A stretch of DNA of 63,937 nt from Desulfamplus magnetovallimortis (lineage in GTDB: Bacteria; Desulfobacterota; Desulfobacteria; Desulfobacterales; Desulfobacteraceae), in the NCBI RefSeq assembly GCF_900170035.1, contig NZ_LT828561.1:26286-90222 (forward strand), in the 5' to 3' direction. Numbering within the stretch: the stretch's first letter is position 1; every line of letters begins with the position of its first letter. The notes under the pieces were generated by a model. That model saw nothing but the letters and a program-made list of their open reading frames with translations, was not told where the DNA came from and ran no database searches. This document shows positions 12,189-61,762 of the stretch, piece after piece. The position numbers were made by a program, and so were the translations under genes.

Positions 12189-12344
12189 TTTCTCCCTCCA
12201 AAGATATTTGCTCCTTTATGCTCTATCTTTCTCCCTGAAAAGATATTTGCCCCTGTATGCTCTATCTTTCTCCCTCCATGGATGTTTGCCCCTGTATTCT
12301 CTATCTTTGTTCCTCCACGGATGTTTGCTCCTATATGCTTTATC
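12189..12344 (-). repeat. Four tandem 39-bp repeats carrying Shine-Dalgarno-like boxes
   Basis: Four units of exactly 39 bp (12189-12227, 12228-12266, 12267-12305, 12306-12344) lie in front of the likely TTG start of the DctP gene. Read on the minus strand each has a purine-rich box related to GGAGGGAGAAA, the same box that serves the start. The repeats are open in frame with the gene, so they could alternatively encode a T-G-A-N-I-x-G-G-R-K-I-E-H repeat at the N-terminus. Confidence 0.85.
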
Positions 12345-17986: not shown

Positions 17987-20945
17987 AAAGCCTGGGACTT
18001 CACGGCCAAATTCTCCAAAAAAAACTGGAACTTCACGGTCAAGCTATTCAATCCCTCCTTTGATTCCATTTTTTATAATCCTTTGTGCCGGAATAATTAC
18101 ATCTGAACACCTTCCAGGGTTTCAGATGCCGGCACTGTGTCTTGCAATCTTTTTTGTGATTAGCCTCTCTTTTATTTACTTCATTCCTGATAATCTCCCC
18201 CGAATCATTTCTTTTACTTTTTCAAAAAAAGTCTCTCTACTTGCCATTTTTTTTCTTGTTGGATACTACCTTGCCCACACTGTTTTCCATCCTTTTTTGC
18301 CTGAAAATCATGTTGTCAACTTTGCAGACAAAGGAGATTATGAAATTACAGGCACCATTGCATCAGAGCCGGAAGAGTTATGGAAAAGGGTCAAGTTCAG
18401 TATGGATATCCATTCAGTATCAAAAGAAATGGTCAATCATGATTTGATTAAAAAAAATGAGTTGCCTGAAAAAAACGGTAAATTACCCGAAGGAAAAAGC
18501 AAATTACCCGAAACAAAAGGTGAGTTACCTGAAAGAAAAGGCAAATTACCCGAAAGAAAAGGCAAATTACCCGAAAGAAAAGGCAAATTACCCGAAAGAA
18601 AAGGCAAATTACCCGAAAGAAAAGGCAAATTACCTGAAAGAAAAGGTAAATTACCTGAAAGAAATGATAAAGTACCTGAAAGAAGTGAAGCCATGGGGAA
18701 AGTACAGGTAAATATTTATACTCCCCTTGAAACCTACAGAAAAGGAGACTTGCTGAAGTTCAGAACAGATATTCGCTCATTGAGAAATTTCAATAATCCT
18801 GGTGGGTTCGACTATGTCAGATACATGAGAATGAAGGATATATGGGGGCGTATAAATATAAACGGCAAGAAAGTTGAAGTTATCAAAAGGGGGCTCGGCT
18901 CCGGTAACAGCTTCAGAAAAGATTTTATCAGGTTTATAGAGGAGCGTATTAAGGATAAAAATGCAGCAGCAATTCTGGTGGCATTGACAACCGGTTACAA
19001 GGATTTGATTCCGGATAGCCTGCGCCACGATTTTTCAGTTACAGGGGCAAGCCATATTCTCGCAATTTCAGGATTACATTTATCAATGATAGCAACTATC
19101 TTTTATTTTTGTTTTAATTTTTTATTATCCATGCTTACACCGTTGCTTATAAGAGGTTGGAGTCGTAAGCTTGCAGCGCTTCTGACACTCGTTCCGCTCT
19201 TTTGGTATGCTGTTATGTCAGGTTGGTCACCGGCAACAAGGCGTGCAATGATAATGATAATGATGTTCATGGCAGCATGGGTTACAGAGAGGGAAAGCGA
19301 TGGTTTCAACTCCCTTTCAGCCGCAGGAATACTCATACTTCTGCTTGAGCCGGAAGCCATTTTCTCAATATCATTTCAGCTCTCTTTTTCGGCTGTTCTG
19401 TTCATTCTTGCAGGTATTTATCTTGTCAGGTTAAATCACAATTATCTTATTAGAGAACATAATTGCCTTAATGTCGAAAAAGGCTCTAATCTTACTGTTA
19501 TCTACCAATACATCAAAAAAATTCCTTTCATGAAACAGGTAATAAATCTGATCTGGATATCTTTTTTTGCAACCCTGGGAACCCAGATACTAGTGATGCA
19601 TTATTTTAATGTTTTTTCATTTTCAGGCATATTTACAAATCTCATTGTTATTCCTCTTATAGGGTTCATATCCCTTCCCCTTGGTTTGGTTTCACTCGGC
19701 ACATATTCATTTTTTCCAGACCTTGCAAGTGCGCTTGTATCAGTTGCCGGTTATATCCTTTCCTCATGTATCTATTATATAAGGTTTCTTGGAGCGCTAT
19801 CATTTACCTCCATTGAGACATTCACTCCAGATGGCCTGGAGATATTTTTTTACTATTTTTTTATGCTTTTGCTTTTTATGCGCATAGCAGAGAGTATCAA
19901 AAAAAGAGATAAAACAGAAATATCCGTATTTATGTTAAAAGGAAAATCTGTCAGGGTTATTATGCTTGTTCTAATCATCTTCTCTTCGTTTTTGTATGAG
20001 TTATGGTGGATAAAAAAAAGATTTTTCAATCATGAGATGGTTGTCACAATATTGAGTGTGGGGCAGGGCAGTTCCGCACTTCTTGAAATGCCTTACGGGA
20101 AAACCGTTCTGGTTGACGGTGGAGGATTTTCATATTTTTCAAGGTTTGACACAGGAGAGCATATTATTGCGCCCTTTTTACGGCAAAAAAAAATTCTTAC
20201 CCTGGATGCTGTTGTCCTGACCCACCCTGAATCTGATCATATCAATGGGCTTGTATATATTATGGAGCATTTCAATGTAGGGGAGCTTGTCAAAAATCCC
20301 GATAAAAGAACGACCTCTGCATATAAAGATTTAATGACGGTTGTGGCTGAAAAAAAGATTCCTCTTTGTAATATAGTAGGCGCTGACAATATATTTGAGC
20401 CTATTCTGATAAAAAAGCTGGGTAAGGCTGAAATGCATTTTCTGCATCCTGTCAAAAACTTTCTTGAGGTATCTGGTGGAAATGACGACGTGAAGGTATC
20501 AGGTAAAAGGGGCAAAATTGAAAATATAAAAAAAGGTAAAACAAAAAACACAGTTGATTACAACAACCACTCCGTGGCATTCAGATTGATTTTTGGCAAC
20601 AACACTATTTTTTTTCCAGGGGATATTATGTCATATGCAGAAGTAAATTTATCGCAACGTTATGGAAATAAATTAAAATCCGATATCCTTGTTTCGCCCC
20701 ATCATGGAAGCTCTACTTCAAGCACTGATTTTTTCCTTGATAATGTTGCTCCTGAAAGTGTAATCATATCTTGTGGATGGGATAATCGTTTTGGTTTTCC
20801 CCATGAGCCTGTGATAAAAAGGTACATGAAAAGAAATATTGCCATATACAGGACTGACCTGAATGGTGCTGTCACTCTCTCTTCGGACGGGGTGCGATGG
20901 AAAATTTCACCGTCAGTAAAGTCCCTTGTTACATTACAAAATTAA
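17931..20945 (+). CDS. comEC: ComEC/Rec2-family competence DNA-uptake protein
   Basis: The 1004-residue membrane protein has an N-terminal DUF4131-type domain with membrane helices, a central competence domain ([22 protein letters not shown], near residue 370), about eight further helices, and a C-terminal metallo-beta-lactamase-like domain with the metal motif [10 protein letters not shown] and a later SPHHGS. ComEC forms the inner-membrane channel for single-stranded DNA in transformation. The soluble part of the N-terminal domain holds eleven seven-residue repeats (see 18462-18692). The exact start is uncertain: GTG 17907 and ATG 17931 both lie inside murA. Confidence 0.9.
18462..18692 (+). 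repeat. Eleven in-frame 21-bp repeats within comEC
   Basis: Eleven units of 21 bp encode L-P-E-R-K-G-K and variants; the six central units are nearly identical in DNA, with the outer ones diverged, as expected for growth by slippage from the middle. They add 77 lysine/glutamate-rich residues to the periplasmic part of ComEC without breaking the frame. Confidence 0.95.
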
Positions 20946-25100: not shown

Positions 25101-26748
25101 ATGTTGGGGACTTTACAGATTCAGTTCGTGCTGAATATTCAGAAAGAGGGCAGCCAAGTTTTGATGCCTGCTCCTCAATGAAGCTGCCGGTACCTGCGGC
25201 GCATACTGTATTCATGAAGGAGGAGGTTACAACTCCGTTTTTCATGGTTGTGAACTTTGCATCCTGCCCACCAATTTCAATTATGGTATCAACATTTTCA
25301 TTGAGTTCATATGCTGCCCTTGAGTGTGCCGTGATTTCATCAAGAACAAGATCTGCTCCTATGATACCGGCAGAGAGTTTTCTTCCTGACCCTGTTGTTC
25401 CGCATCCCTTTACAATTAGATTCAGATCATGCTCTTCTGTAAAATTGTGTAGCGCCTTGAAAAGTGCCTGCACTGCCTGGACAGGTCTTGATGCTGTTCT
25501 TGTGTAAAATCCGGCAACAACTTCTCCTTTTTCTGTAATGACAACTCCCTTGGTACTTGTTGAGCCTACGTCAAGGCCAAGGTAGCAGGGCAGGGTGGTT
25601 GTGGAAGATGACTTTTCGATATTTTTAATTGAAACGTTATTTTTAATTGAAACGTTATTTTTAATTGAAATGCTATTTTTGATTGATGATGGATCCATGT
25701 AGATATCTGTTTCAACATTTTCATATATATACTGACTGAAGCTTGTGAAATCAGGATAGCTTGACAGGACAAGATCAAGTTCAGGGTAAAAGAACTTGTT
25801 CTGTTTTTCACGTTTTTCAATGAGTGAACTTGCTGATTCAATGGTAAAAGAGAGAATTTTTCCATCATCATTACTGTTGTCATCTGATTTCAGCCAGCCA
25901 TTAAGGTTCTCTGATTTAAGATCGCATGAAGAGAGTGATTGCGGGCAGCTTATAGATGTTTCATTCAGATTCCTGATTTCGTCTGCAAGGCAGAGGGCGG
26001 CTCCAATGGCTCCGTAAAGATGTGAATATCCGTCATCACGCAACAATGGTGTGCCTGTGAGTGCTTCAATATGGTTTTTAACAGAGTCATTTCTTGAAAC
26101 ACCGCCACTGAAAATAACAGGGGTTCTTATGGTCTCATTGCTGAAAAGAGTGTTATATATATTTTTTGCAAGACCCTTGCAAAGCCCATCACATATTTGT
26201 GGAACAGAGAAGCCTTCCTGCTGGGCATGGATAAGATCTGTTTTTGCAAATACCGCGCACCGAGTTGCAATGTCAGGGATGTCAAGGGTATTTTCAAATG
26301 CTGCCTGACTCAATGCCTGGGGGGATAGAAGACCAAGTCTTGTTGATTGCTGGTCAAGGAAACTGCCGGTTCCGGCAGCACATGATGTATTGTTTCTGGC
26401 CCCGCAATAGTTTTGCATCTCATCAAAAAGACTGAGACTGAATCTTTCCCCTCCAACATGGAGAATTGAACCTATATCACTGTGAAAAAATTGAGCTGCC
26501 TTTATGATGGAAACCTGATCATCATAGGTCATGCTTCTTTTTACTGTTAAAGGGGTGGAGGCGGTGGCTGCAACATGGGTAAATTGATTGAGATCAATAT
26601 CAGAGAGAGCTTTTTCAATACCTTGTTCAACATTACCGTGGTGAAATGCAGAGTTGCGGCATATAATTTCCCTGTCCATTGTAATGCCGGCAATTGATAC
26701 AGATACTGAACCAATATCTATTCCCAGAATAACATCAACTTTTTTCAT
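22153..26748 (-). CDS. CoA-substrate enzyme activase: two BadF/BcrAD ATPase domains fused to DUF2229/HgdB-like part
   Basis: The 1531-residue protein has two ATPase domains of the 2-hydroxyacyl-CoA dehydratase/benzoyl-CoA reductase activase family: residues 5-260 (ILGIDIGSVSVSIAG, C-A-A-G-T-G-S-F-L-D) and about 388-650 (LGLDVGSTSTKGVVI, C-A-A-G-T-G-S-F-I-E). A cysteine motif CRLCTNHC near residue 690 and a DUF2229/HgdB-like region follow to the end. Such activases use ATP to push one electron into a radical dehydratase; the physiological substrate of the giant fused form is not established. The linker between the ATPase domains has an in-frame repeat (25621-25692). The RHH gene upstream is three bases away. 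Confidence 0.88.
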   Translation of the reverse strand: MKKVDVILGIDIGSVSVSIAGITMDREIICRNSAFHHGNVEQGIEKALSDIDLNQFTHVAATASTPLTVKRSMTYDDQVSIIKAAQFFHSDIGSILHVGGERFSLSLFDEMQNYCGARNNTSCAAGTGSFLDQQSTRLGLLSPQALSQAAFENTLDIPDIATRCAVFAKTDLIHAQQEGFSVPQICDGLCKGLAKNIYNTLFSNETIRTPVIFSGGVSRNDSVKNHIEALTGTPLLRDDGYSHLYGAIGAALCLADEIRNLNETSISCPQSLSSCDLKSENLNGWLKSDDNSNDDGKILSFTIESASSLIEKREKQNKFFYPELDLVLSSYPDFTSFSQYIYENVETDIYMDPSSIKNSISIKNNVSIKNNVSIKNIEKSSSTTTLPCYLGLDVGSTSTKGVVITEKGEVVAGFYTRTASRPVQAVQALFKALHNFTEEHDLNLIVKGCGTTGSGRKLSAGIIGADLVLDEITAHSRAAYELNENVDTIIEIGGQDAKFTTMKNGVVTSSFMNTVCAAGTGSFIEEQASKLGCPLSEYSARTESVKSPTSSDRCTVFMERDMNHFLSEGYSVDEVLASALHSVRDNYMTKVATEAKIGNTILFQGATAKNRALVAAFEQRLKKPLHVSKYCHLTGALGVALTLKDIQTKNNLLPHEQLNENDNPRAESSSFRGVDLWKQNIPVRQETCRLCTNHCKLTIVEMPQETVAFGFLCGRDYQTDHYVPKDKIFHLIKARKKAVTLPHPSPAKHSFSMGIPAALHMVEDLDFWKIFFNYLGIKIITSGKMKNPVSRGRALASAEFCTPATSVYGHVDHLMEKADYVFLPYYFENKNRDKKIRRQYCYYTQYLPSVLASVPSMEQKRLISPVVKDLYTNFYTKIEIYRALKKIDRADISFFEITAAYDKAVEWKRGADEELKDLFNANMNICMDTPINRGINGEGSQEWENNSDHQPDKAMQKQEKPELNIDNKVSDDIKVVLLGRPYTILSDSLNSRIPDIFSSLDVKAFFQDMLDLDSHDFSEIEPLLREIHWQHAATILKTALVVARTPNLFPVYVTSFKCTPDSFGVDYFKKIMEAHDKPYLVLELDEHDSSVGYETRIEAAVRAFRNFNTHGNIRHKVELSHINPQFATSLNHKTIIVPNWDSITCHFLAATLRGEGYNAILMEETPETIKQSLKTNTGQCLPLNAIASGYIQTMINHDLDPQKCVLWISKSEIACNIKLYPHHIKTILGSFSHVDSDLFEKAEVYKGELSLSEISMSAAINAYFSHMFGGLLRALGCRLRPYEKVKGETDRAIKQAVDILTMAFEGKSDREETLKIALGMFEKIRTIPRDNRPKVGIFGDLYARDNDIMNQNLIHFIEEHGGEVVTTPYYRFAKMIAGSYFKKWFKEGKYASLLSYKAILTAMTQMEKRYYRHFEPLFNEPDHIYNDSFEEVLAQYGLLPEHTGESMDNLLKIHYTIKENPDLALFVQASPSFCCPALVTEAMSAKIEKMTGVPVVSVTYDALGGNKNRVIIPFLQYGRETRSSLLKQKII
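25621..25692 (-). repeat. Four in-frame 18-bp repeats in the activase linker
   Basis: Four 18-bp units encode S-I-K-N-x-x repeats between the two ATPase domains. Two units are identical. The frame is kept. Confidence 0.8.
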
Positions 26749-41021: not shown

Positions 41022-41179
41022 ATATGAAAGTCTCGGTAACAGCCTGTTTTTAAAACGACTTTCATCTCTTCGATTGTGGCGGTAATCCGCCATGTACGTT
41101 ATATGAAAGTCTCCGCAAGTGGCTGTTTTTAAAACGACTTTCATTTCTTCGATTGTGGTGAAGAACTGCCATGGTCGTT
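41022..41179. repeat. Two tandem 79-bp repeats
   Basis: Unit 1 is 41022-41100 and unit 2 is 41101-41179. Each starts ATATGAAAGTCTC and has GAAAGTC and GACTTTC arms around CTGTTTTTAAAACG, then TTCGATTGTGG and CC-A-TG-(T/G)-CGTT. The second half of unit 1 is found inverted at 11129-11171. They separate hmcF from the stress protein gene and could form two stem-loops in the operon transcript. Confidence 0.85.
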
Positions 41180-52684: not shown

Positions 52685-53641
52685 CTATTTTTTTGATTTA
52701 ACATGAAGCCATTGGTACTCTATCTTTTCAAGCATTGCTTTCAGTTCTTTAACAGTCAGCTCTTTCAACTCATCACGTGAAGGAACCGAAAGCCCCAATA
52801 TCTCATGAAAAAGCTGTATTTTACCTATAATTTCACCTTCTTCTCTGCCTTCTTCCCTGCCTTCTTCTCTGCCTTCTTCCCTGCCTTCTTCCCTGCCTTC
52901 TTCTCTGCCTTCTTCCCTTCCTTCTTCTCTGGCAGATTCAATTCCTGAATAATAATCCCTTTTCCACTTCATATGGGCTTCATAGGCATCAACGAGTTTT
53001 TCATCACGGGTGAAGGCCTCATATTTTTCATGGGCCTTACTTATCTGGGGATTCTCTTTGAGCAATATTTTCATGGCTTCATCCTCTTCTGTTTTACCTT
53101 CATTTTTCAAATAATAGAGCCATTGCTCCAACTGCTTTTCCTTATTATAATTTGCAAGTTCCGGAAGTTCAAGAAAATGCATTACAAGGTGATCTGTCAG
53201 ATAAAGTTCAGGGTTGTTACATTCCCTCAACATAAAACCAAGATGATATCTGCCTGTCTCTTTGAAAAGCTCAAAATCAAGTATATTGATACAGATGACC
53301 GGACAAAGTTTTTTGTACACCACACCTTCTTCAAGCTGGGATGAGTATAGTTTTGACCAATAGTACAAACTTCTATTTCTGAATACATTATTCCCTGATG
53401 TCTGTACCTCTATATTATATATCTCTTTGGTTTCAGATATTGCTTTAATGTCAAGAATTGATTCCTTATCAAATACAAGCTCCTTGATATTAAAGGGATT
53501 TTTTAGCTCTACTTTCTCTATCAAGGGAAAATTCATATTACCTTGAACTGCATTTATGAAATCAAGCAAAAGGCTTTTATGCTCTTCTTTTCCAAATAGA
53601 TATTTTATGAAGATGTCTGATGTTGGCTTTACATATATCAT
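52685..53641 (-). CDS. Rpn/PD-(D/E)XK transposase-like nuclease
   Basis: The 318-residue protein starts MIYVKPTSDIFIKYLFGKEEHKSLLLDFINAV, typical of the Rpn-like PD-(D/E)XK 'putative transposase' family (PF12784-type). The active-site order is S-I-L-D-I-K-A, then N-I-E-V-Q-T. Rpn proteins are DNA nucleases that can promote recombination. Near the C-terminus is a run of E-G-R-E repeats (52838-52930) before a final helix. A second member is at 60791. Confidence 0.85.
   Translation of the reverse strand: MIYVKPTSDIFIKYLFGKEEHKSLLLDFINAVQGNMNFPLIEKVELKNPFNIKELVFDKESILDIKAISETKEIYNIEVQTSGNNVFRNRSLYYWSKLYSSQLEEGVVYKKLCPVICINILDFELFKETGRYHLGFMLRECNNPELYLTDHLVMHFLELPELANYNKEKQLEQWLYYLKNEGKTEEDEAMKILLKENPQISKAHEKYEAFTRDEKLVDAYEAHMKWKRDYYSGIESAREEGREEGREEGREEGREEGREEGREEGREEGEIIGKIQLFHEILGLSVPSRDELKELTVKELKAMLEKIEYQWLHVKSKK
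52838..52930 (-). repeat. In-frame 12-bp repeats encoding EGRE
   Basis: About eight 12-bp units encode G-R-E-E tandem repeats near the end of the Rpn protein, with silent C/T changes between units. Frame is kept. Confidence 0.9.
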
Positions 53642-53854: not shown

Positions 53855-54799
53855 TTACTGCTGACCTGGGGAGAGGACAAGCCGGAAGCCTACGTAGTTG
53901 TATCTGTAGTCCAGAAAGCCGCGGTTCCGGTACGCCGACCGGCAGCGCCAGGCATCGTAGTTCCAACTGCCTCCTCGAACCACACGGAGGGAGCCTGTCG
54001 ACGGCCCTTCGGGGTCTATCAGCGAATCAGTCGTATAATTCCCATACCAATCCTGGCACCACTCATAGACATTGCCGTGCATATCATACAAACCCCAGTC
54101 ATTGGCTTCTTTTTGTGCCACTGAACGTGTTGTATTACCAGAATTTCCACAATACCAACCCATGAGATCCAGGTTGGGGTCATAAGCACAAAGTGTTTCG
54201 GTTATATCTCCATTGGCAAAGGCAGTTGTTGAACCTGCACGGGCACTGTACTCCCATTCGGCTTCAGTAGGCAAAAGGTAGGTACCATCTCCAAGTGCAT
54301 TCAGGGCTGTAATAAAATTCTGAATATCATTCCAGGAAACATACTCTACAGGACAGTCAGCACCGCACTCATCATGATATGACGGGTTGCTGCCCATCAC
54401 AGCTTCCCACTGCCCTTGGGTCACTTCCGTGGTCTGCATGTAGAAGGAGTTGGTCAAGGTTACTTGGTGCTGGGTTTCATTTGAAACTCGGCCAGGTTCA
54501 TCAGATGGTGAACCCATCATAAAAGTACCGGCAGGTATAAGGTTGAAGGTCATGCCAAGGGAGTTGGTTATTGTTTCCCCTTGATATCCTGATGGATCTA
54601 TACCGTCACAGTTCTGGTCAATGCCGTCTCCGGCTATCTCTGTGGCTCCGGGATGGATAGTGGCATCTGTGTCATCGCAGTCGGTGTGGTCAAGGACATA
54701 GCCTGCTGGCTGGGAGGTGGCTTCGTAAGGGTGGTCTTCGTCTCCGTAGCCGTCTCTGTCTGTGTCGGGGTAGTAGGTTGTTGTATCCAGGGGTGGGTC
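53855..54799 (-). pseudogene. 3' part of a split gene: metal-binding repeat plus FGE-sulfatase domain
   Basis: An ATG-initiated frame (53855-54553, 232 residues) encodes a formylglycine-generating-enzyme-like (SUMF1) domain: [62 protein letters not shown] and [20 protein letters not shown]. The same frame stays open upstream to 54799 and encodes a second copy of the 67-residue metal-binding repeat seen at the end of the neighbouring gene. The part therefore belonged to that gene before a MITE inserted at 54807. Whether it is still translated from the internal ATG is unknown. Confidence 0.85.
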
Positions 54800-54806
54800 T
54801 ATACCA

Positions 54807-54931
54807 CATACGCATCAAGCTAAGGTTTTCAAAGCCTTATCAGACGGGTTTTTCTAATTTTTGTTGTTAAGATGTTTGATTTTATATTTATAATAAAAAC
54901 AAAGTCTTATATTCTTAGCTTGATGCGTATG
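54807..54931. mobile_element. MITE-4, 125 bp, 18-bp perfect inverted ends, 10-bp target duplication
   Basis: The ends CATACGCATCAAGCTAAG and CTTAGCTTGATGCGTATG are perfect inverted repeats. GTCTATACCA flanks both sides (54797-54806, 54932-54941). The ends resemble those recalled for the IS231 group of the IS4 family (CAT-x-CCCATCAA-x-TTAAG), which also makes 10-12 bp duplications. It encodes no transposase and contains the stop that ends the gene to its right. Confidence 0.93.
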
Positions 54932-57871
54932 GTCTATACCATCACAGTTCTGGTCAATGCCGTCTCCGGCTATTTCTGTGGCTCCGGGGTGTATACTGGC
55001 ATCAGTATCATCGCAGTCGGTGTGATCAAGGACATAGCCTGCTGGCTGGGAGGTGGCTTCGTAAGGGTGGTCTTCATCTCCGTAGCCGTCTCTGTCTATG
55101 TCGGGGTAGTATGTTGTAGTTTCCAAAGGTGGATCACAATTCTGGTGTACGCTTGCATCTGTGTCATCGCAATCATCATCATTGGAAACATATCCATCTG
55201 GTTTTAATACAGCCGTTATTGTGTGCTTTTCATCACCATAACCGTCATTATCATTATCGCGATACCAGATCGAGGGTGAAGAAAACATTTTAATATATTT
55301 ATCAAGATCCGTCAATCGTTCGTTAAATGCCTTGAGAGTATATATACCTACGCTCTTTTTTGTACCATCAGATGTAGAAAGTGTTATATGTGTCCAAATA
55401 TCTTTATTATTCTCTAATTCTGGTATCACCACAGTCGAATAGGATGCACTAACAAGGCTACCGTATAACACTGCAAGACCATCCACCAGCAATCCTAATT
55501 CATTTGCAGCTTGGCCAGCCAATACCGCACCAGAGGGCATCAACGCTGCAATTTCCATTTGCATCCTAGCACTCTCAAAAGCATGGGCTGCCAGTGCCAC
55601 AGCCTCAGCCATGACATAGGTTTCCAATATAGATAACTCTTCTTTACTATCAATAAAACGAGGAACACTAAGCAGCCAATTGGCACGAGTTTCTTTTAAC
55701 ATCTCAAGAATATCGTTTTTGGATTTACCCTGATCCATATCTTTTTGAATTTTTGAAGAAATATTGTCAAAATCGCTATAGAAAGACTCAAGAAGATGAT
55801 ATGAAAGGGCTGCGTAGTAACAATACCAGCCAGTGCGGTCTGCAGCTATTGACTGAACTTTCCCCATATTCAGATCAGATGCCCAATAGGCACCTCCATT
55901 AAGGAATTCAAATATTGGTGGATCTCCGTTTGTGTAGATGGTACTAAATTTTGAAATACCGGCTTTATTATTGATCTTTACTAATGCCATGTTAAGTTTT
56001 GTAACTAATTCATTATAAACTTTTGCCGCATTCTTTTTGAAACAAAAGAATCCATAGGTGTGGTTCTTCAGTTCTTCTGCGATGTTACCTGTCCTAACAA
56101 GTTCAAGAAAAGAGTATAAGGCTTCACTCACCAATATTGCTGCATACTCTCCCCCTTCATCATCGGAATTAAGTTCTTTGATATTATCGTCATCCCCAAG
56201 GGCTTCAATTAAATGCTCAATAAAATCAAATGATTCTTTAGAGTCATCTATTAGTTTATCAAGAGTAAAAGTGGTGCCTAAATTATATTTTTTACTTTTT
56301 TCTAAAAAACCATACGGAGAAAAACTGACAACGGAAAAAGTAAGTTTTCTTGTGTTTGCATCATAGCTGTCTGGATAAATATTTTCAGTTTTTCCGGTTG
56401 CTGATATAACATGCACCAAAAAAATATTTTCAGGGTCCTGATCTTCGCCAACAGTATAATTAAATGTTACAGGGCCATCAAGCTGGCTTTCTGCCTGGAG
56501 ATCAAATGCAGCAAGCGGTGTGCCGGCAACCATGGAACTTATCTCATCTGTCGATATTTTATAGGCGATTACCTTGGTTGGTTCATTAAAGGTCAACTCC
56601 CCTGCTTGCACTTCCAGCTCGTCCAGCTCAAGAAACGTACCTCCACTTGAAGAGAGAGTGGCTTCTGCACTGTTCAATGGCTGCATCACATAAAATGAGA
56701 GAATTAAAACAGTCTGAGCCTGGCCATCTCCGGCAATTTCGATCGTTACTTCACCGTTACCATCTCCGGTAGGCGCACCTATCGTAACAGAAATGCCATT
56801 TTCAGTCTTAACCACACTATCTTCTGTTGTAACATGACTGACAGCTATATCCAGTCCATTGTCCAGAAGATTGCCGGGCAGACCGATGTTTGTTACTGAA
56901 TTTGCGATAAAAAAGAATGGCCAGAGAACCTCAATGGTTTTTGATAAAAGCTCCACTCGATATTGATTCAAATCAGTGGCATCAGGATTTTCATAATATG
57001 ATGATATCCATTCAGCAAGGGTATTAATCTCTTCATTTGATGTTGAAACAGGTTCTCCCCATGCAGATATTTCAATAATGTTTGCAAGGTATTGAGCCGG
57101 CGAGGTTATATTTCTGGCATCTGCAATTTGCCAGGCAGCCTCTGTATAATGGCTTATAATTGTCGCGTCCGAGCTGAATCTACCGTTTTCTGGAATATCA
57201 GCGCTGTTAATTATGCTGTGAATTTCAAGCCCGTTTTGGGGATTGACTGCTGTCAGTAAAAGAAGGTCATGTGAAGCGGCAGCTTCAGGACTTAAAGATA
57301 TGAACCATTCACCGTTATTATCCGCAACAGCGCTGCCCAGAGAGTCTGAATGACCTAAACCAGAGACTGTTACAACGGCCTGCGGCACAATATCGTCATA
57401 AACCTTCCCTGACAGGATTATACCGGCTCCCTCAATTCCTGCAGGAACTGCATTGACGCTATTGCTTCCCAGCATCACCTGACCCGATTCGATCTTCAGA
57501 ATCAGGGAACCATTATCGAAGGTGATAATCTGGGATGAGGTTGTTGCCGGCAGCTTGACCAATGTACCGCCTGTACCTTCAAGAATAACCACGGCACCTG
57601 TTCGGGACACTGTAAAACTGTCTGAATTTGAAGCAATGGTTATGGTGTTGCTGCCAGGAAAGTTTACGATCTTTACATTTGCTCCTGTAGCAACGGTCAC
57701 ATGGTTATCTCCTGCACTGCCAAAGATGGTTACCGTCTCCCCGGATGATACTGTGGTATCGGGGCTGGTATCCGTTAAAACAATGCTTTCACGGGCACTC
57801 GCCGAAAAAGACGCAAGCACCACAACCACAGCCAAAAGCGTAAACAAGAAAATCTTTGCTTTCTTTTGCAT
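54854..57871 (-). CDS. Large secreted protein with C-terminal MopE-like metal-binding repeats, truncated by MITE-4
   Basis: The 1005-residue product starts with a signal peptide ([26 protein letters not shown]), then a beta-rich region ([24 protein letters not shown]...) and a long helical region. Two copies of a metal-binding motif follow ([12 protein letters not shown]...[11 protein letters not shown] and [12 protein letters not shown]...[29 protein letters not shown]), as in MopE-type and thrombospondin-3-like calcium or copper binding repeats. The last 25 residues ([10 protein letters not shown]...) are encoded by the inserted MITE. ATG 57871 was chosen over 57922 because the signal peptide starts there. 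Confidence 0.85.
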
Positions 57872-60790: not shown

Positions 60791-61762
60791 ATGAAATATT
60801 TTATTGATCCCACAGTTGATTGTGTATTCAAAAAACTTCTTGGTTCTGAGGAGAACAAGAATTTGCTGATTCATTTTTTGAATGCAGTACTGCGTTCTTC
60901 CATTTTGAATCCAGTAATAGATGTTGAGATATTGAATCCATATAACGAGAAAGATTTTTTAACAGATAAGCTCTCCATTGTGGATGTCAAGGCAAAGGAC
61001 AGTGAAGGTCGTACCTTTCAAGTGGATATTCAGTTATCAATTCATCCAGGGCTTAAATCAAGGATTCTTTACTGCTGGAGTGATATTTATGCATCCCAGC
61101 TTTTAAAGGGTGATGATTACTCCAAGTTGCAGCCTGTTATATCCATCTGGATTATAACTGAGAAACTTTTTTACGAGAGTGAAGGATTTCATTACCATTT
61201 TCAGATATTCGATCCAGTGAACAGGATAGCATTAAATGAGGAATGTGCAATCCACATAATGGAACTTTCAAAGTTTACAAATATGGAGATTAAAAATGAG
61301 CTGGAAAGGTGGTTGGCATTTTTCCGGCTGGGCAGGGATATTGATGATGAGCTTATGCCCGATTTTATGAATACAAAAGAGATGAGGCAGGCCATGGAAA
61401 CATTGAAGGTTTTTTCAGAAAAGGAGAGAGAGTATCATCTATACCAGAACCGTATGAATACCATAAGACTTCAAAGAACCATTGATAAAGAGATGAGTAG
61501 ATTGAAGCAGGCAGTGATAATTGCTGATAAAGCCCTATACGAGGCTGAAGAAAAGAAGCAGAAGGCTGAAGAAGAGAAGCAGAAGGCTGAAGAAGAGAAG
61601 CAGAAGGCTGAAGAAGAGAAGCAAAAGGCTGAAGAAGAGAAGCAAAAGGCTGAAGAAGAGAAACAAAAAGCAATAAAAGAAAAAGAAGAATCTCTGAAGC
61701 GAGAGCAGGCGTTGATCGAAAAATTGAAACAGATGGGCGTTGATATTGACGCTGAGACATAA
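60791..61762 (+). CDS. Rpn/PD-(D/E)XK transposase-like nuclease, second copy
   Basis: The 323-residue protein starts MKYFIDPTVDCVFKKLLGSEENKNLLIHFLNAVL and has L-S-I-V-D-V-K-A-K and F-Q-V-D-I-Q as active-site positions of the family, here with D-x-Q in place of E-x-Q/K. The C-terminal part has six in-frame 21-bp repeats (K-Q-K-A-E-E-E) that form a charged coiled coil. It lies 95 bases after uvrB and seven bases before uvrC, so it probably shares their transcript. Confidence 0.85.
   Translation: MKYFIDPTVDCVFKKLLGSEENKNLLIHFLNAVLRSSILNPVIDVEILNPYNEKDFLTDKLSIVDVKAKDSEGRTFQVDIQLSIHPGLKSRILYCWSDIYASQLLKGDDYSKLQPVISIWIITEKLFYESEGFHYHFQIFDPVNRIALNEECAIHIMELSKFTNMEIKNELERWLAFFRLGRDIDDELMPDFMNTKEMRQAMETLKVFSEKEREYHLYQNRMNTIRLQRTIDKEMSRLKQAVIIADKALYEAEEKKQKAEEEKQKAEEEKQKAEEEKQKAEEEKQKAEEEKQKAIKEKEESLKREQALIEKLKQMGVDIDAET
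61544..61669 (+). repeat. Six in-frame 21-bp repeats encoding AEEEKQK
   Basis: Six units of 21 bp start at 61544; the middle ones are nearly identical in DNA. They give a lysine/glutamate coiled coil at the end of the Rpn-like protein. Confidence 0.93.

Follow-up and report, generated by a model that had tools for sequence, protein, structure and literature searches.

Diversity-generating retroelements (DGRs) with C-type lectin targets are known in sulfur-cycling bacteria (PMC10686091), and targets of the formylglycine-generating enzyme (FGE) type have been reported in Treponema denticola (PMC4891356) and elsewhere (PMC3521204), TvpA of T. denticola being a DGR variable protein with an FGE-type C-type lectin fold. 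In Thiohalocapsa PB-PSB1, transposons and repeats resembling miniature inverted-repeat transposable elements (MITEs) are described as degrading DGR loci, including reverse transcriptase (RT) genes and a template repeat (PMC10907252). Among insertion sequences (IS), the IS231 subgroup is described as having ends of the form CAT-------AA--TAA and target duplications of 10–12 bp (PMC2266710). Here, a 63,937-nucleotide stretch of the genome of Desulfamplus magnetovallimortis (contig NZ_LT828561.1, positions 26,286 to 90,222 of the forward strand), hereafter called the window, is analysed around a 125-bp MITE that lies inside the gene of a predicted secreted protein. Taken as a whole, an IS231/IS4-type MITE seems to have cut a secreted protein headed by a DGR-type lectin between its stalk and its head, a reading to which a probability of roughly 80% is assigned.

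The inserted element and its family

Element searches and end comparison place the MITE at 54807–54931, with neither strand assigned. Its 18-bp terminal inverted repeats, at 54807–54824 on the plus strand and 54914–54931 on the minus strand, match at 18/18 positions (end sequence CATACGCATCAAGCTAAG), and the target-site duplication GTCTATACCA stands unstranded on both sides, at 54797–54806 and 54932–54941, exactly as a first reading of the window from its letters alone (the sequence-only reading) had described it. The source genome (G000) is a draft assembly of 6,677,998 bases in 108 contigs, 97.3% complete, in which a search with the element returned 11 matches, namely ten full copies and one 32-bp fragment at 88%. 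Eight of the ten full copies are identical and two are 124 bp long at 96%, and all ten are flanked by exact duplications, nine of 10 bp and one of 11 bp. Copies L008 and L010 share the same duplication sequence on opposite strands, while the duplications of the other copies all differ. The element is therefore a MITE by its short length, terminal inverted repeats, lack of a transposase gene, several copies, and a duplication at each copy. With up to three mismatches, the 18-bp end occurs at 22 places in the genome (20 in the ten copies, one solo end on contig C12 and one three-mismatch site), against one place for the reversed control pattern; the further copies for which the sequence-only reading had suggested a search are thus present and are not due to chance.

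The end is found at two mismatches or fewer in 41 of 389 genomes, the source genome included. Eight of the nine same-genus genomes lack it and the ninth has a single two-mismatch site, the MITE family being limited, within the searched genomes of the genus, to the source genome. This restriction, together with the identity of the copies, points to a recent burst of the MITE. The insertion in the window also appears to be recent, as had been proposed, since eight of ten copies are identical and the duplications are unchanged. Long frames enter and leave two of the ten copies, the one in the window and one at C7:140100, which sits in a surface-protein gene that is RCC1-like according to repeats read by eye. 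At copy L006, a frame of 112 codons leads in and one of 209 codons leads out, on one strand. Moreover, six of the ten copies lie, as judged by eye, within two kinds of short GC-rich repeats (L003 and L009; L004, L007, L008, and L010), and one of these kinds recurs in the window at 41058–41111.

As to its family, the end of the element agrees with all eight published IS231 positions, and its duplications of 10–11 bp fall within the 10–12 bp range, which supports the earlier assignment to IS4-family-type ends. The exact 18-bp end is present in at least 114 genome-contig stretches, with record titles that name Methylococcaceae, Candidatus Jettenia, Chloroflexi, Chlamydiae, cyanobacteria, Desulfobacterales, and others. 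Pairing of the ends on the loci from L083 upward gave 27 candidate elements, 15 of them with exact duplications of 9–11 bp. At L140 and L175 the element is roughly 1.4 kb long and includes a transposase of the IS4 family that scores over the IS4_1 cut-off; in L175, on a Chloroflexi contig, the transposase occupies one frame between identical ends (173 bits, cut-off 115) and the duplication is 11 bp, GGGCTTGACCC.

Several observations speak against so direct a link. The transposase frame of L140 is broken and its element has no exact duplication, and in both L140 and L175 an Ala replaces, as seen by eye, the tyrosine of the YREK signature. In the source assembly, the end search at up to three mismatches found no intact element with CATACGCATCAAGCTAAG ends, and the IS4_1 model NF033592 matched six stretches, none above its cut-off of 115; the best, at 66 bits, belongs to a decayed relic at C1:1087824–1088268. 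The IS4-family transposase with matching ends that the sequence-only reading had suggested seeking is thus not found in the assembly. Because both linked transposases have Ala in place of the YREK tyrosine, the element is best called IS231-like and not a proven member of IS231, and its partner transposase is lost, unassembled, or acting from outside. The solo end at C12:169597 was considered as the end of an autonomous element and rejected, since the adjoining transposase, which is of the DDE_5 type and IS701-like, has its own ends of the CAATGGTTCGGACAGTTTT type, seen in two relatives; a scan of the genome collection with this transposase found no relative. A text search of the literature for the end sequence likewise gave no match. 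In addition, other Desulfobacterales (L083, L086, L150, L165, and L216; one host is Desulfonema magnum) have elements that are likewise exactly 125 bp long, with identical or almost identical ends and different interiors; 66–74 of their 125 bases are like those of the window MITE, 36 of them in the ends. Elements of 136 bp, longer by one helical turn, also recur (L217 and others).

The interrupted gene

The interrupted gene is on the minus strand. Its N-terminal fragment, delimited by frame reading and Pfam, starts at ATG 57871 and extends to 54854 (1005 codons and a TAG stop), comprising a Sec-type signal peptide recognized by eye, a first domain without a Pfam match, an unknown middle part, a MopE-type metal-binding repeat and, at the very end, 25 residues encoded by the element. 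The first stalk repeat (54933–55135, minus strand) contains the Cu-binding_MopE match (PF11617; 45.8 bits against a Pfam gathering score of 27), and the second (54597–54799, minus strand), which the Pfam scan did not take separately, is 92% identical to it over 203 bp. The element does lie, as previously noted, between two near-identical metal-binding repeats. The severed head, of FGE-sulfatase type with a C-type lectin fold, follows at 53855–54553 on the minus strand and counts 232 amino acids from the first ATG past the element.

The insert and one duplication add 135 bp, or 45 codons, and the frame is kept. Inside the element there are two in-frame stops, a TAG with its first base at 54856 and a TGA with its first base at 54817, after which the frame is free of stops up to the TAA at 53857. 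Read-through of TAG or TGA was set aside, the two stops being different and 13 codons apart. With the element, the frame measures 1339 codons including the stop; without the insert and one duplication, it is a continuous 1293 amino acids, so leaving both out rebuilds the frame as the sequence-only reading had stated, and its figure of about 1330 codons for the original gene corresponds instead to the length with the element. The insertion, with its duplication and its premature stops, separates the head from the piece that carries the export signal.

That both pieces once formed a single gene, also part of the earlier account, is well supported at the sequence level because fused relatives exist. 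Two paralogs in the source genome, C9 (1079 amino acids) and C17 (1481 amino acids), have the first domain and the FGE domain on one unbroken frame, the former immediately preceding the latter in C17. They are two of the five first-domain paralogs examined, out of six among the matches listed, in a search in which 8 of 39 own-genome candidates were scored and more are possible. In L080, from a relative of the same order and another family, MopE repeats and FGE share one frame; it is the only one with this pairing among 11 distinct MopE-repeat genes of relatives, several of which are cut by the locus edge. The MopE–FGE combination, which had been singled out as unusual, is thus uncommon and not unique. 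Among the listed matches in 97 other genomes, at most 444 of the 1004 residues of the first piece were covered in one stretch, and no whole-gene orthologue was found.

The severed head

The second piece is recognized by Pfam as FGE-sulfatase (E 1.9e-43). In an alignment with human SUMF1, read by eye, the two catalytic cysteine positions (336 and 341, as given in the titles of mutant structures) are however occupied by Tyr and Ala, and all eight NCBIfam matches are under their own cut-offs. The best match among PDB sequences is TvpA of T. denticola (2y3c, E 7.2e-27). A structure model of the head built on a 24-row alignment (pLDDT 89.8, pTM 0.90) has 2y3c as its best fold match as well (TM 0.86 on the query), followed by PvdO and human FGE. 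Judged by its residues, the head does not qualify as an FGE enzyme, and its model looks like a C-type lectin fold with a DGR variable protein as its nearest match. Since the catalytic cysteines are absent and the fold is closest to such a protein, the FGE-sulfatase label is misleading: the C-terminal domain named by the sequence-only reading exists as a Pfam match, without the catalytic cysteine pair, and seems to be a DGR-type lectin head instead.

Possible signatures of retroelement diversification

The final 115 coding bases of the head (53858–53972, minus strand) may be recognized as a DGR-type variable region. Its last 30 coding bases (53858–53887, minus strand), which resemble an initiation of mutagenic homing (IMH) end, agree at 29 of 30 bases with the variable-region end of a DGR in G004, a genome of the same genus. 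In G004, an RT with the SQ motif, a template, and a variable region occur together, and of the 23 positions at which template and variable region differ, 20 are adenines in the template; its target gene (L305, G004:C114) is frameshifted at the edge of the variable region. Within these 115 bases, the window head and its own paralog on contig C1 differ at 29 positions, and 17 of them coincide with the 32 positions at which the G004 template has an adenine (Fisher p 6e-5). Moreover, 15, 18, and 19 of 29 variable-region codons differ nonsynonymously from C1, C9, and C17, compared with 54/191, 50/192, and 62/192 codons upstream; this enrichment has p values of 0.017, 0.0002, and 0.0008, respectively, in comparisons that all share the window sequence and are not independent. 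The last 206 bases of the window gene have a match in 44 of 389 genomes, the source genome included, no more than two candidates being scored in each; G004 is one of the 44.

The source genome also encodes DGRs of its own. Six RT matches in it correspond to five distinct genes, and two of these, on contigs C6 and C10, have the motif (I/V/L)GxxxSQ, taken from PMC3521204 as the mark of a DGR RT. The C6 locus (L235 1236–2461; L260) is a complete DGR, in which an SQ-motif RT and a template are accompanied by three variable regions of FGE type, whose differences are located at template adenines in 18/18, 14/14, and 21/27 cases, or 53/59 in total; two of its targets are caspase–FGE fusions and the third is cut off by the contig start. 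At C10 (L237 2404–4035), a second SQ-motif RT of 544 amino acids lies between open reading frames that, by eye, are like Lcl_C/DUF1566, and this locus is probably a second DGR. Neither the C6 template nor the 6 kb around the C10 RT matched the variable region of the window gene, and both were rejected as its source. The hairpin that folds 3' to this region in the window (−19.6 kcal/mol) was not used; its form is not kept in C1 or G004.

The head has a C-type lectin fold with the variable region at its C terminus, and it shares a 3' IMH with G004; a cognate RT and template are not found in its own genome (at 97.3% completeness of the assembly). Because of this lack, it is filed as DGR-type and orphan, and not as a working DGR target. 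The head is probably an orphan DGR-type protein, and recent DGR activity on it is held with less confidence than its type.

Alternative explanations

The most serious alternative is that the head is a divergent FGE-type domain in which fast surface change arose by ordinary mutation and selection, with no retroelement ever involved. A number of results count against diversification by a DGR, and several of them would suit this alternative. A search of the assembly with the window variable region matched only the paralog C1 and gave no cognate template, and a search with the C6 template retrieved itself and the three C6 variable regions, and not the window. With the G004 template as a proxy, the window differs at 37 sites, of which only 17 are template adenines (32/115 sites, p 0.004). 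The differences between the window and C1 are rich in transitions (20, with 9 transversions), unlike purely random adenine changes, and 12 of the 29 are at non-adenine sites. Moreover, the 3' 206 bp are 76% identical to C1, compared with 75% in the surrounding 788-bp alignment, so that the region is no more diverged than its flank, and the synonymous conservation of the tail (p 0.04 and 0.10) is weak evidence when taken alone. Nevertheless, ordinary evolution would not readily explain a 3' end in common with a complete same-genus DGR, the enrichment of differences at adenine sites and of nonsynonymous changes in the variable region, and TvpA as the best match by both sequence and fold, and it is considered unlikely, although it retains some weight.

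Much less probable is the proposal that the split does no damage and the two pieces work as two proteins, the element providing a stop and spacing. The frame is kept across the 135 bp and both flanking frames are intact, as such an arrangement could require; however, the head piece has no signal peptide as judged by eye, its first ATG (54553) excludes the second stalk repeat, and the insertion looks recent. A related idea starts from the intact duplication and the 45-codon insert, owing to which a precise loss of the element would restore the frame. The MITE could then switch a surface lectin diversified by a retroelement "off" in a reversible manner, with the head as a silent variable cassette, which is very doubtful. 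It is still more improbable that the junction was created in assembly or binning by the joining of repeat copies. The assembly is a draft in 108 contigs and the repeated element is flanked by a 92% direct repeat, conditions under which such errors could arise, but the exact 10-bp duplication and the in-frame fit on both sides argue otherwise, as does the fact that all ten copies have their own matching duplications, that of the window being unique among them. Finally, an active formylglycine-generating (sulfatase-maturing) enzyme on a metal-binding stalk, which the Pfam match would suggest, is hardly credible given Tyr and Ala at the catalytic positions and NCBIfam scores that are all below cut-off.

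Proposed course of events and genomic surroundings

In the preferred reading of a MITE that cut a DGR-type lectin-headed protein, the original product would have been exported, with a signal peptide, a first domain, a long middle, a MopE-type stalk, and a C-terminal FGE-type C-type lectin head. This head likely bound a ligand and was formerly diversified by a DGR that has since been lost or is unassembled. A non-autonomous IS231/IS4-type miniature element would then have entered the stalk, presumably by cut-and-paste as its family suggests, duplicating 10 bp and ending translation early through its two in-frame stops. The first piece may now be exported headless with a foreign tail of 25 residues, and the head piece, if made, would begin at an internal start, for example ATG 54553, and stay in the cell.

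Next to the head, a protein of the PD-(D/E)XK nuclease family transposase type is encoded at 52685–53641 on the minus strand, as recognized by Pfam and paralog comparison. The FGE and PD-(D/E)XK pair has a paralogous copy in the same order at C1:163000–173000 (L234), where the second gene is 83% identical over 956 bp and a further MITE copy lies about 60 bp beyond it. Elsewhere in the window, tandem repeats occur inside long frames at 12189–12344 (unit of 39 bp), 18420–18713 (21 bp), 25617–25686 (18 bp), 52812–52958 (12 bp), and 61521–61709 (21 bp), all with units that are multiples of three.

Significance and comparison with known systems

Each ingredient of this locus is known and it is their combination that is informative. 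The novelty is modest because mobile-element damage to DGR loci has already been published. A text search of one open-access library found no paper pairing a DGR with MopE or a metal-binding motif. With the preferred reading, a routine gene interruption becomes part of the history of a binding protein that was probably diversified, and an FGE-sulfatase annotation is seen to be able to conceal a DGR-type lectin head. If the reading is true, an exported, MopE-stalked architecture would join the repertoire of DGR targets, and the locus would offer an example of an IS231-like MITE with ends common across phyla and with no intact partner transposase found in its own assembly.

With regard to IS231, the IS4 family, and their MITE or mobile-insertion-cassette derivatives, the window element has the same CAT...AA..TAA ends and a duplication within the 10–12 bp range (PMC2266710), and an IS4_1 transposase is found between such ends in other genomes. 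However, its end spans several phyla, whereas IS231 was described in 2008 as almost confined to the Bacillus cereus group (PMC2266710); moreover, the linked transposases lack the YREK tyrosine and the window element has no passenger gene. As in MopE and other Cu-binding_MopE proteins (PF11617), the Asp-rich repeat exceeds the Pfam cut-off, but here it would serve as a stalk ahead of a lectin-fold head. The head resembles TvpA in its fold and in a C-terminal region that aligns to RGGSW...GFRL, and the window protein differs from TvpA in its long N-terminal part, its metal-binding stalk, its interruption, and the lack of a cognate template among the sequences found. A further parallel is offered by the DGR loci of Thiohalocapsa PB-PSB1, which are reported to have C-type lectin targets, some of FGE type, and to have suffered MITE-like damage (PMC10907252); whereas in that organism RT genes and a template repeat are the parts described as damaged, in D. 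magnetovallimortis it is a target-like gene that has been cut.

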